A DNA stretch of 64,000 nt, from the NCBI RefSeq assembly GCF_003610195.1, contig NZ_RAPO01000001.1, positions 1,302,001 through 1,366,000 of the forward strand. The letters run 5' to 3'. Source of the DNA: Halopiger aswanensis. GTDB taxonomy: Archaea > Halobacteriota > Halobacteria > Halobacteriales > Natrialbaceae. The notes below the pieces were generated by a model. The model ran no database searches. It had not been told where the DNA came from and saw nothing but the letters and a program-made list of their open reading frames with translations. Below, in pieces: positions 2,334-6,421 of the stretch. Position 1 is the first letter of the stretch; the number at the start of each line of letters is the position of its first letter. The position numbers and the translations under genes are program-made.

Positions 2334-2741
2334 CTACTCCGAGCCCTCGACGCCGGTCACGTCGTATCCCAGCTCGCGGATGTCCTCGAGGATCGCCTCG
2401 TGGTCGGCGCTGGCCTCGTAGTAGATGACGATGTCGAAGCTCCCCTCGCGCAGCAGCTGCTGGCACTCCCAGACGAACTCCTCGTCCTCTAAGGTCAGCC
2501 CCTGGTGCTGGTTCGAGGAGAAATCGGGGTCGTCGTTGCCCGAGTAGACGTAGCAGTCTTTCGGGTCGTAGCCGGCGTGTTCGGCGACGATGTCGCCGAT
2601 GTCGATCGTCGCCTGCATCATCTGGACGTCCGCCTGTCCGTCGTAGTCGGTGTGGACGACCGCGGCGTTCAGTTCGATGTCGCCGGGCTCGAGCAGTGCC
2701 TTGGTACGCTGGTAGAGGTCGTCGTCGATCGCGTCAGCCAT
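2334..2741 (-). CDS. Conserved haloarchaeal protein of unknown function (DUF5778-like)
   Basis: This is a 135-residue soluble acidic protein with no signal peptide or membrane segment. It resembles a family of uncharacterised haloarchaeal proteins that I recall as DUF5778; the family number is from memory and should be checked. Visible features are an N-terminal segment that begins MADAIDDDLYQ, a central CYVYSGNDDPDF stretch and a C-terminal part resembling a small alpha/beta fold. The start at 2741 is chosen over an ATG three codons upstream because the protein then begins MADAI. No function can be assigned. Confidence 0.75.
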   Translation of the reverse strand: MADAIDDDLYQRTKALLEPGDIELNAAVVHTDYDGQADVQMMQATIDIGDIVAEHAGYDPKDCYVYSGNDDPDFSSNQHQGLTLEDEEFVWECQQLLREGSFDIVIYYEASADHEAILEDIRELGYDVTGVEGSE

Positions 2742-2939
2742 TAGCCGCACCGAGACTCGCCGGACAGATAGCCGTCACGATTCCGCCGAGCCGTGAGCGG
2801 GTCGTTTGACGGGTCTTTTCGGACGGTTCGATCGACCGTGATGCGGTACCATCCGACAGGAAATCTCAGCGGACGGACCCGTTTCCCGTCGTGGAGTAAC
2901 ACACAAGACACATAGTCATTGGTCCCTTCAAATCAACCG

Positions 2940-3881
2940 ATGAAGCGGTGGCTCCGTCAGCGCGTCGACGCGGCCTACGAGCGACTGCTGACCAGAGAGA
3001 TCTCCGGTGCGCCGACCCACATCGCGGTGATTCAGGACGGGAATCGACGATACGCTCGGCAAAACGGCGACGAGCCCCACGAGGGCCACCGTGCGGGCGC
3101 CGAGACGACCGAACAGGTCCTCGAGTGGTGTCAGGAGATCGGCGTCGAGGAACTGACGCTCTACACGTTCTCGACGGAGAACTTCGATCGACCGGCCGAG
3201 CAGAAGGAGGCGCTGTTCGATCTCCTCTGTGAAAAGCTGCGGGAGTTCGCCGACGCCGACCGCGTCCACGAGAACGAGGTCAGCATCCGCGCGATCGGCG
3301 AAATCGACATGCTTCCCGAACGAGTCCAAGACGCCGTCGACTACGCCGAACGGCGCACCGGCGACTACGATCGATTCGTCCTCAACATCGCGCTCGCCTA
3401 CGGCGGCCGGTCGCGACTGCTCGAGGCCGCCCGCGGCGTCGCCCGCGACGTCGACGCCGGCGAACTCGAGCCCGAGGAGATCGACGTCGAGACGATCGAG
3501 CGGCGGCTGTACGACCGGCCGGTTCGCGACGTCGATCTGATCATTCGACCCGCCGGCGAAGAGCGGACCTCGAACTTCCTGCCCTGGCACGCCAACGGCA
3601 ACGAGGCGGCCGTCTTCTTCTGTACGCCCTACTGGCCGGAGTTCTCGAAGGCCGACTTCCTCCGCGGGATTCGGACCTACGAACACCGCAAGGAATCGTG
3701 GCGGCGGACCCGCGCCCGGCGGGCGCTGGCCCTGCTCGGCGCGGTTAGCGAGGCGGAGCTCACCGAAGCCCGATCGATCGTCGAGCGGTTCCGCGACTCG
3801 CTACCGACGAGCGAACGCCCGACGGAGGACGAACTCGCCGTCGGCGAGGACCTCGAGGGGAACGAGCCCGTCGCCGACTGA
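2940..3881 (+). CDS. uppS: Cis-prenyltransferase, catalytic-type subunit (polyprenyl diphosphate synthase)
   Basis: This enzyme family condenses isopentenyl diphosphate onto an allylic primer in cis, giving the long polyprenyl chain used as dolichol-type sugar carrier. The 313-residue protein has the catalytic motif HIAVIQDGNRRYA with the essential Asp at residue 33. It also has LTLYTFSTENF near 79-89, LNIALAYGGR near 149-158 and the IRPAGEERTSNF diphosphate-binding segment. After WPEFSKADF it diverges: instead of the C-terminal RXG ending of homodimeric bacterial UppS it has a long Arg-rich and acidic tail. This is the same arrangement as the catalytic half (DHDDS type) of heteromeric enzymes. 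The start at 2940 follows an AT-rich leader. A second, complementary family member lies at 4303-4914. Confidence 0.93.
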   Translation: MKRWLRQRVDAAYERLLTREISGAPTHIAVIQDGNRRYARQNGDEPHEGHRAGAETTEQVLEWCQEIGVEELTLYTFSTENFDRPAEQKEALFDLLCEKLREFADADRVHENEVSIRAIGEIDMLPERVQDAVDYAERRTGDYDRFVLNIALAYGGRSRLLEAARGVARDVDAGELEPEEIDVETIERRLYDRPVRDVDLIIRPAGEERTSNFLPWHANGNEAAVFFCTPYWPEFSKADFLRGIRTYEHRKESWRRTRARRALALLGAVSEAELTEARSIVERFRDSLPTSERPTEDELAVGEDLEGNEPVAD

Positions 3882-3956
3882 CGACGGTCGCCGGAATCCG
3901 TCCCGACTCAAACCTCGACCCCGACTACTTTGTCAATCGCCGAACCACATCCGGTA

Positions 3957-4271
3957 ATGGATCCCTCCACACTGTTCACGCCGTCACAACTTGATCGCGC
4001 AACGCAAGCGTACGAGGACGTCGTCATCTACGACGGAACGGGCGAAGACGACGTGCTCTACGAGGGCCCCGTGCTGATCCACCCGAACGGCTGGCTCGAG
4101 CTCGAGGGCGATCGATTGCTCTCGCCCAGCGCAGTTCACCACATCGACATCTACGACGACGTCGATATCGACGAGGCGGCCGACGAACAGGATGCCCGAC
4201 AGCGAGAGCCAACCGGTTGGGACGACGACTGGGGACGCGACGACTTCGGATCGGACCGAGATACCTGGTAG
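3957..4271 (+). CDS. Conserved hypothetical acidic protein between the two prenyltransferase genes
   Basis: This is a 104-residue, very acidic protein that starts MDPSTLFTPSQ at an ATG. An in-frame TTG lies 27 bases upstream. It has a small beta-rich middle part (VVIYDGTGEDDVLYEGPVLIHPNGWLEL) and a disordered Asp/Arg/Trp tail. No signal peptide, membrane helix or catalytic motif is visible. It lies 75 bases downstream of uppS on the same strand and converges with the second prenyltransferase-like gene. It could be co-transcribed with uppS, but I do not recognise a function. Confidence 0.75.
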   Translation: MDPSTLFTPSQLDRATQAYEDVVIYDGTGEDDVLYEGPVLIHPNGWLELEGDRLLSPSAVHHIDIYDDVDIDEAADEQDARQREPTGWDDDWGRDDFGSDRDTW

Positions 4272-4302
4272 CCGACGCCGCCAACCGAATGAAGGGGCGA
4301 GA

Positions 4303-4914
4303 TCAGCGACCGAACCGCCGCGACCGGTTGCAGAACTCCCGCACCGCCCGCAGGAAGTCTCGCTCGCGGAAGTCCCGCCAGTTGATGTCGGTGAAGTACA
4401 GCTCCGAGTAGACCGACTGCCAGATCATGAAATCCGAGAGCCGCTCGGCGCCGGTCTTGATGACGAGGTCGGGTTCCGACGGAAAGACGAGGTGTTCCTC
4501 GACCCGTTCGTCGTCGATCTCCGCGGGCTCGAGTTCGCCGGCGTCGACGCTCTCGGCGAGCGTCTGGACGGCGCTCGTGAACTCGTGTTTCCCGCCGAGG
4601 CCGATCCCGATCTGGATCGGCGCGTCCGCCGGCGTCCGATCTTCGGGCCCGCGGACCGCGACCTCGCGGCCGCCCGGGCCGTCGATCGCCTCGAGTTCGC
4701 GCCGCAGCGTCGGGATGGCGTCGGCGTCGAGGACGCTCACGTAGACCGTCACCCGCGAGGCGTACGCGAACGCCCACTCGAAGAAGTCGGTGAGCGTCTC
4801 GTAGGCGCCCTCCTCGAGGAGGTCGCGCTCGGTGATGACGAGGGCGACGTGCTCGGGCGGGGCGGCCTCGTGGCGGCGGATTCGGAGGGCGAGGTACCGT
4901 TCGTACAGTCCCAC
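4303..4914 (-). CDS. Cis-prenyltransferase-like protein lacking the catalytic Asp motif
   Basis: The 203-residue protein belongs to the UppS/cis-prenyltransferase family by its second half: GIGLGGKHEF, AGELEPAEID, IKTGAERLSDFMIWQ, SELYFTDINWRDF and the C-terminal RSRRFGR, which contains the RXG motif. In the first half the DGNRR catalytic motif is gone; the aligned stretch HVALVITERDLLEEG has Thr28 where the catalytic Asp should be. Accessory subunits of heteromeric enzymes (NgBR/Nus1 type) show exactly this loss with retention of RXG. I infer a partner for the uppS product rather than an independent enzyme. The GTG start at 4914 gives MGLYERYLA. The gene is divergent from the DUF92 gene. Confidence 0.88.
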   Translation of the reverse strand: MGLYERYLALRIRRHEAAPPEHVALVITERDLLEEGAYETLTDFFEWAFAYASRVTVYVSVLDADAIPTLRRELEAIDGPGGREVAVRGPEDRTPADAPIQIGIGLGGKHEFTSAVQTLAESVDAGELEPAEIDDERVEEHLVFPSEPDLVIKTGAERLSDFMIWQSVYSELYFTDINWRDFRERDFLRAVREFCNRSRRFGR

Positions 4915-5077: not shown

Positions 5078-6421
5078 GTGACAGCACCCGTCCGGCGAGC
5101 CGGCGTCTTCGCGGCGCTGTGTACGCTCGCGCTCGTCGTTCCGCTCTTCGGTCCGCAGGTCGCAGCGGTGGTCGCTGCGGTCGTCCTCCTGGGGTCCGCC
5201 GTCATCACCGACGGCCCGCTGTTCGATCTCCTCGCCTATCCGGGCGACTACGAGGACGGCCGCCTCTACGGTCTCATCACGTTCGTTTTAGCGATCGTCG
5301 CACTCGGACTGATCAGCGTGCGCGCGTCGCTGCCGACCGAAGTCTTCGTCGGCACCGCCGTCCTCGTCGGCTACGGGAACCTCGGCGAGCAACTCGCTCG
5401 CCTGCGCACCGACCACGACGTCGCCCGCGTGACGGTCTTCGCAGCCGTCGCGACGGTCGCCGCAGTCGTCGGGCAGGTCGCGACGGCCGTCATCGACGGC
5501 ACGGCGCTTGGCCCGTCGCTCGAGTCGGCGCTGCCGACGATGGTCTTCCTCGCAGCCACCGGCGCCCTGCTCGCGGCCCTGCTTCGGGACATGCTCCTGC
5601 TGTACGACGATCCCGTCGTCATGCTCTCGGTCGGCTTCCTGCTGTGGCTGCTCGCGGAACTCGAGCCGGCGCTGGGGACGGTCGAGATCGCGGCTGCGCT
5701 GGCGGTGACCGTCGGATTCGGCTACCTCGCGTACGCGCTCGAGACGGCCTCCGTCGCGGGGATGCTCACCGGCGTCCTCCTCTGTCTGCTGACGATCGTC
5801 CTGGGCGGGTACGGCTGGTTCGTCGTCCTCGTCTCGTTCTTCGGGATCGGCGGCCTGTCGACGAAGTTCCGCTACGACCGCAAGGAGCAACTCGGCGTCG
5901 CCGAAGACAACGACGGCGCGCGCGGCAGCGGGAACGTCCTCGGCAACGCCGCGGTCGCGATCGCCGCCGTCCTCGGTTACGCCGCCAGTTCGGCGTCGCT
6001 GCTGCCCGGCGAACTCGAGCCCGGCGTCTTCCTGTTCGCGTTCGCCGGCTCGGTCGCGACCGCGATGAGCGACACCCTCTCGAGCGAGATCGGCAGCGTC
6101 TTCGAGACGCCGCGGCTGATCACGACGCTCGAGCCGGTCGAACCCGGCACGGACGGCGGCGTCACTTGGCAGGGCGAGCTCGCCGGCCTCGCGGGCGCGG
6201 CCGTCGTCGCCGGCATCTCCTACGTCCTCTTCCCCGAAGTCGGGGTCGCCGGCGCGGCGATCATCGTCGCCGCCGGCTTCGTCGGCATGACCGTCGACAG
6301 CCTGCTCGGGGCGACCCTCGAGGGCTCGTTCCTCGGCAATCAGGGCGTGAACTTCCTCGCGACGCTGTCCGGCGCGCTCGTCTGTGCGCTGCTGGTGCTC
6401 TCGTTTGCCGTCTTCGGCTGA
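5078..6421 (+). CDS. DUF92/VTE6-family membrane protein, probable polyprenyl-phosphate kinase
   Basis: This is a 447-residue integral membrane protein with about ten or more hydrophobic segments. The C-terminal half (from about residue 225) matches the DUF92 family: FFGIGGLSTKFRYDRKE, SGNVLGNAAVA, FAGSVATAMSDTLSSEIG and a final TVDSLLGATLEGSFLGNQGVNF. Characterised members (plant VTE6) phosphorylate phytyl phosphate to the diphosphate, and archaeal members have been suspected to act on isoprenoid phosphates. The roughly 200-residue membranous N-terminal extension is unlike the short bacterial forms. It starts at GTG 5078 and is divergent from the prenyltransferase-like gene, which supports a role in isoprenoid phosphate metabolism. 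The substrate is unknown. Confidence 0.85.
   Translation: MTAPVRRAGVFAALCTLALVVPLFGPQVAAVVAAVVLLGSAVITDGPLFDLLAYPGDYEDGRLYGLITFVLAIVALGLISVRASLPTEVFVGTAVLVGYGNLGEQLARLRTDHDVARVTVFAAVATVAAVVGQVATAVIDGTALGPSLESALPTMVFLAATGALLAALLRDMLLLYDDPVVMLSVGFLLWLLAELEPALGTVEIAAALAVTVGFGYLAYALETASVAGMLTGVLLCLLTIVLGGYGWFVVLVSFFGIGGLSTKFRYDRKEQLGVAEDNDGARGSGNVLGNAAVAIAAVLGYAASSASLLPGELEPGVFLFAFAGSVATAMSDTLSSEIGSVFETPRLITTLEPVEPGTDGGVTWQGELAGLAGAAVVAGISYVLFPEVGVAGAAIIVAAGFVGMTVDSLLGATLEGSFLGNQGVNFLATLSGALVCALLVLSFAVFG

Follow-up and report, generated by a model that had tools for sequence, protein, structure and literature searches.

Results

Two cis-prenyltransferase paralogs converge at a haloarchaeal locus

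Within the window, the 64,000-nucleotide stretch of Halopiger aswanensis DNA that we analyzed, lie two paralogous genes of the cis-prenyltransferase (cPT) family, referred to here as A (cPT-A) and B (cPT-B). A occupies positions 2940..3881 on the plus strand and encodes 313 amino acids from an ATG at 2940; we propose it as the catalytic subunit of a heteromeric cPT. B occupies positions 4303..4914 on the minus strand, encodes 203 amino acids from a GTG at 4914, and is proposed to be a non-catalytic, NgBR-like subunit. The initial annotation had the coordinates of both genes right and described them as about 420 bases apart with a small gene between; the gap is 421 bases and does contain one small gene, but the description must be corrected in that B is on the minus strand, convergent with A. 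A search of the host genome (4.87 Mb) for a third PF01255 gene found none, leaving A and B as its only cPT genes.

The haloarchaeal gene order is DUF5778(-) A(+) B(-) DUF92(+), and the conserved succession A-B-DUF92 is a new point. A and B converged in all 55 haloarchaeal stretches holding both, with a median gap of 420 bp as measured between BLAST ends. An A-B operon is ruled out, as the two genes were on opposite strands in every stretch with both. In several genera A has been relocated away from B, and there B and DUF92 remain together. The small gene between A and B (3957..4271, plus strand) is not conserved in other stretches, which rules it out as a third subunit. In 52 of the 53 haloarchaeal stretches holding both A and the DUF5778 gene (2334..2750, minus strand), the two diverge; we place this neighbor outside the enzyme.

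Divergent from B is a gene for a DUF92/TIGR00297 integral membrane protein (5078..6421, plus strand), a candidate functional neighbor. The same orientation was found in 59 of the 62 haloarchaeal stretches with B, the other three being without DUF92, and the B-DUF92 pair also occurs in Methanothrix, Methanoperedens, and Argoarchaeum. We take DUF92 to be the VTE6/TMEM19 family. Because VTE6 is a phytyl-phosphate kinase, a polyprenyl-phosphate role for this neighbor is a reasonable guess.

A retains the catalytic center and B retains the C-terminal RXG motif

We collected sequences from 80 stretches covering most sampled Halobacteria genera, 60 regions drawn largely from the phylum's other families, and 80 named loci, which gave a residue table with 156 sequences of A, 167 of B, and 16 of single type. 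In a Pfam profile search, A matched PF01255 over its full length (226 bits, profile positions 1-216 of 219), and it has the full-length domain, the DGN motif, and the allylic/IPP ligands that mark members of this family. Its DGNRR catalytic motif (3036..3050, plus strand; D33-G34-N35-R36-R37) was invariant across the A sequences, and equivalents of D26, N28, R30, N74, R77, R194, R200, and S202 (E. coli UppS numbering) were present in approximately 100% of them. At the columns homologous to RXG, the 156 aligned A sequences lacked the motif, with mostly E/A/R, S, and R/Q replacing R, R, and G. A substitute TLGG tail was likewise not found in A, the tail of which is variable.

The predicted structure of A (pLDDT 84) includes a C-terminal helical extension. 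Its best PDB match was the DHDDS subunit of the human complex, over approximately 300 columns that include the C-terminal helices, with bacterial UppS ranking close behind. Orthology of A with DHDDS is not favored by sequence, as bacterial UppS score equally well. We also observed that A ends in Ala-Asp (3873..3878, plus strand), an ending kept in 81 of 105 haloarchaeal A, compared with approximately 4.6% for the remaining ORFs of those stretches. In haloarchaeal A it follows a variable, low-confidence tail, and no such pattern was seen outside the class; this -AD C-terminus is also a new point.

For B, PF01255 covered only residues 99-202 (91 bits; profile 116-219), and the catalytic Asp and N-terminal half required of an enzyme of this family are missing. 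Thr28 (4831..4833, minus strand) occupies the catalytic-Asp position, and the N-terminal half is strongly diverged, with no Pfam match. In E. coli UppS numbering, D26, N28, R30, S71, and R77 are lost, gaps fall at H43, N74, and E81, and E213, W207, R241, R242, and G244 are retained. The RXG motif (R200-F201-G202; 4309..4317, minus strand) lies at the C-terminus, where the protein ends R199-R200-F201-G202-R203. Roughly 50 columns are invariant in haloarchaeal B, mostly in the C-terminal half, and conservation over the full length of 54 aligned B from many genera rules out a chance ORF or fragment.

The predicted structure of B (pLDDT 85, pTM 0.83) adopts a cPT fold over its full length, with helices shortened where the product tunnel of an enzyme would lie; judging from this model, B would lack much of the tunnel-forming N-terminal half. 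In both sequence and model the cPT-like domain begins directly, and no N-terminal transmembrane segment was found. B of genus g30 (e.g., G006, G038, and G065) aligned in separate pieces near residues 85-90, which suggests an insertion at that point.

The two motifs were thus distributed over two proteins. DGNRR was present in 156/156 A and 0/167 B, no B having a DGN motif of any kind, and a C-terminal RXG was present in 165 of the 167 B (RKFG in the other two) and was kept across the phylum Halobacteriota. This division of DGNRR and RXG is far beyond chance. It bears out what had been read from the window, namely that the first protein has DGNRR (Asp33) without a C-terminal RXG, as is the case in every A, and that the second has Thr28 for the catalytic Asp and an RRFGR end. 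Instead of combining DGN and RXG on one polypeptide, as a UppS-type homodimer does, the 156 A and 167 B split them. The pattern is that of DHDDS and NgBR, with A keeping the Asp and lacking RXG, and B having no Asp, aligning only in its C-terminal half, and keeping RXG.

A and B are retained together across Halobacteriota

Searches of 391 Halobacteria genomes identified A in 389 and B in 389, the latter count including a B cut by a contig end in G236, and exactly two PF01255 genes in 374. The exceptions were a 99%-complete draft with B in which A was not found (G072), an 88%-complete genome in which B was not found (G382), and an 82%-complete genome in which neither was found (G390). In a phylum-wide sample of 61 genomes, which reaches all Halobacteriota families seen, 55 encoded full-length A and B; the remaining six were G072, G382, G390, G236, and two genomes of family f18 with neither. 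A and B are therefore co-encoded as expected of a heteromeric cPT. The initial annotation had suggested that a two-gene organization may be general in haloarchaea and had named, as an outcome that would speak against it, genomes commonly keeping the first gene without the second. That outcome did not appear: co-presence was near-universal in the 391 Halobacteria, and the scope proved wider still, extending to the phylum.

Several genomes departed from this pattern in other ways. The two f18 genomes (G397 and G405, from one genus and approximately 91% complete) had no A, no B, and no other PF01255 gene. One or two extra PF01255 genes were present in 14 Halobacteria genomes (G068, G195, G226, G105, and ten others), and the extra copy was A-type where examined (L080 and L081 in G068; L136 and L137 in G105). 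L298, a B-like gene, sits on a contig of 3.4 kb in a Lachnospiraceae MAG, which encodes a full UppS of its own as well. L298 groups with methanogen-type B (family f23), and this contig is probably a methanogen contaminant.

Single-protein relatives and the origin of the split

Two other euryarchaeal phyla have a single-protein form. One gene spanning profile positions 1-219, RXG included, was found in 79 of 80 Methanobacteriota genomes, the 80th (G673) having an additional 80-aa fragment, and most of the 61 Thermoplasmatota genomes likewise had one full-length gene with RXG. DGN and RXG occurred together in all 16 single-type sequences, which come from Thermoplasmata, Methanosphaera, and a few bacterial MAGs.

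In a 101-row tree, A formed one clade (SH-aLRT 98) and B another (SH-aLRT 100), which is what a single duplication at the base of Halobacteriota would give. The split probably arose once, at that point, when a homodimeric enzyme was duplicated and the two copies underwent complementary losses. After thinning of the tree, support for the A clade fell to 64 and NUS1 joined B through a branch 6.4 changes per site long. A grouping of A with DHDDS was not rejected (p-AU 0.65), and the B profile matched NUS1 over residues 17-202 (E 3e-4). The Halobacteriota and DHDDS/NUS1 splits could in principle stem from one ancient archaeal duplication, in which case the homodimeric enzymes of archaea would be reversions or separate lineages and the two-subunit design of the human dolichol synthase would have been inherited from archaea. 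We consider this unlikely. Given the single-protein form in the two other phyla, we regard independent origins of the Halobacteriota and eukaryotic splits as more likely.

Discussion

We think it very likely that A and B act as the subunits of a single, obligate heteromeric cPT, in which the RXG of B completes the active site of A and which makes the polyprenyl diphosphate for the lipid that carries sugars to the cell surface. The mechanism that we propose follows the human enzyme, in which NgBR extends its RXG-bearing tail across the dimer face and into the active site of DHDDS (PMC7573591). A would supply the full catalytic center, comprising Asp33 and the Arg/Asn/Ser ligands, and B would pair with it through the usual cPT dimer face. 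The RXG tail of B would enter the active site of A, holding the acceptor pyrophosphate and Mg2+, and the complex would elongate an allylic diphosphate with IPP to a polyprenyl diphosphate, leading to the dolichyl phosphate carrier. For haloarchaea, we infer complex formation, activity, and product length. Inter-protein covariation (mean-field, 138 A-B pairs, effective depth 94) placed 19 of the top 100 signals in the expected interface versus 11.3 expected, a weak enrichment. The placement of A and B in different transcription units counts against a heteromer, as do the relocation of A in several genera and the 99%-complete draft with B but no A (G072). On balance, heteromeric cPTs are probably standard in Halobacteriota.

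Could A instead work alone in vivo as a homodimer, with B a separate regulator or a membrane or partner adaptor that merely modulates it? DHDDS on its own forms homodimers that are weakly active (PMC7573591), as A might be too, and MM_0014 of Methanosarcina mazei and its relatives are active cPTs that end in TLGG and have no RXG (PMC8131916). However, A has neither RXG nor the TLGG tail, B holds exactly what A lost, B is retained wherever A is, and PMC8131916 describes the M. mazei pair as one heteromeric enzyme. We therefore regard independent action of A as quite improbable. More doubtful again, to the point that we give it very little weight, is the notion that B is a decayed paralog with an unrelated new function, such as isoprenoid binding, its motifs complementing those of A by coincidence. 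The divergence of the N-terminal half of B and the covariation of 19 against 11.3 at this depth would suit such a history, but the invariant columns of haloarchaeal B, the phylum-wide retention of its RXG, and its co-retention with A would not. That A and B are separate cPTs, each with a product of its own, is scarcely credible. Both belong to PF01255 and some archaea have several cPTs, three in M. mazei (PMC8131916), but B lacks equivalents of Asp26, Asn28, Arg30, His43, and Asn74, which are absolute or nearly so in A and in single-type enzymes.

In the literature consulted, accounts of heteromeric cPTs chiefly concern long-chain enzymes of eukaryotes, with one further case from a methanogen. 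Two-subunit cPTs were already known, by these accounts, from eukaryotes and M. mazei, and their phylum-wide distribution is new. Nearly all haloarchaea, and Halobacteriota more broadly, show the same division of labor, versus single-protein enzymes in two neighboring phyla, and one can now test directly whether the split arose independently in archaea and in eukaryotes. Haloferax volcanii offers a genetically tractable model in which to study how a pseudo-enzyme comes to be an obligatory subunit. The conserved DUF92 neighbor provides a lead into how archaea complete the synthesis of dolichyl phosphate, the uncharacterized late steps of which were flagged as an open question by Lombard 2016 (PMC5088576), and is a candidate for a missing polyprenyl-phosphate step.

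Among known systems, the homodimeric UppS of E. coli and the single cPT of Thermoplasmatota and Methanobacteriota share the fold, catalytic residues, and RXG function of the A-B pair, but carry DGN and RXG on one polypeptide rather than two. The MM_0014-type archaeal cPT resembles A in lacking RXG, but is a homodimer with a TLGG tail and belongs to a clade apart from A and B; no gene of this type was seen in the haloarchaeal loci read.

Another parallel is the heteromeric enzyme that the initial annotation mentioned from a methanogenic archaeon. It is real: MM_0618/MM_1083 of M. mazei (Emi 2019, as cited in PMC8131916), which makes C45-50 products (PMC8131916). As proposed for haloarchaea, two cPT paralogs there form one enzyme with products of carrier length. 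M. mazei has a third cPT, the homodimeric MM_0014, which ends in TLGG (PMC8131916). Three-cPT genomes of the Methanosarcina-like family f13 hold A, B, and a TLGG-ending gene, and the named Methanosarcina loci, M. spelaei included, carry B. By elimination, MM_0618/MM_1083 should be the A/B pair. Unlike the M. mazei genes, haloarchaeal A and B usually lie side by side and converge.

The human DHDDS/NgBR (NUS1) heterotetramer and yeast Rer2/Nus1 likewise pair a catalytic subunit lacking RXG with an inactive subunit that carries it. DHDDS shares its C-terminal helical extension with A, although several Halobacteriota A (240-260 aa) are without it. B differs from NgBR/Nus1 in having no N-terminal transmembrane anchor, and the products of A-B are expected to be shorter than those of DHDDS/NgBR.
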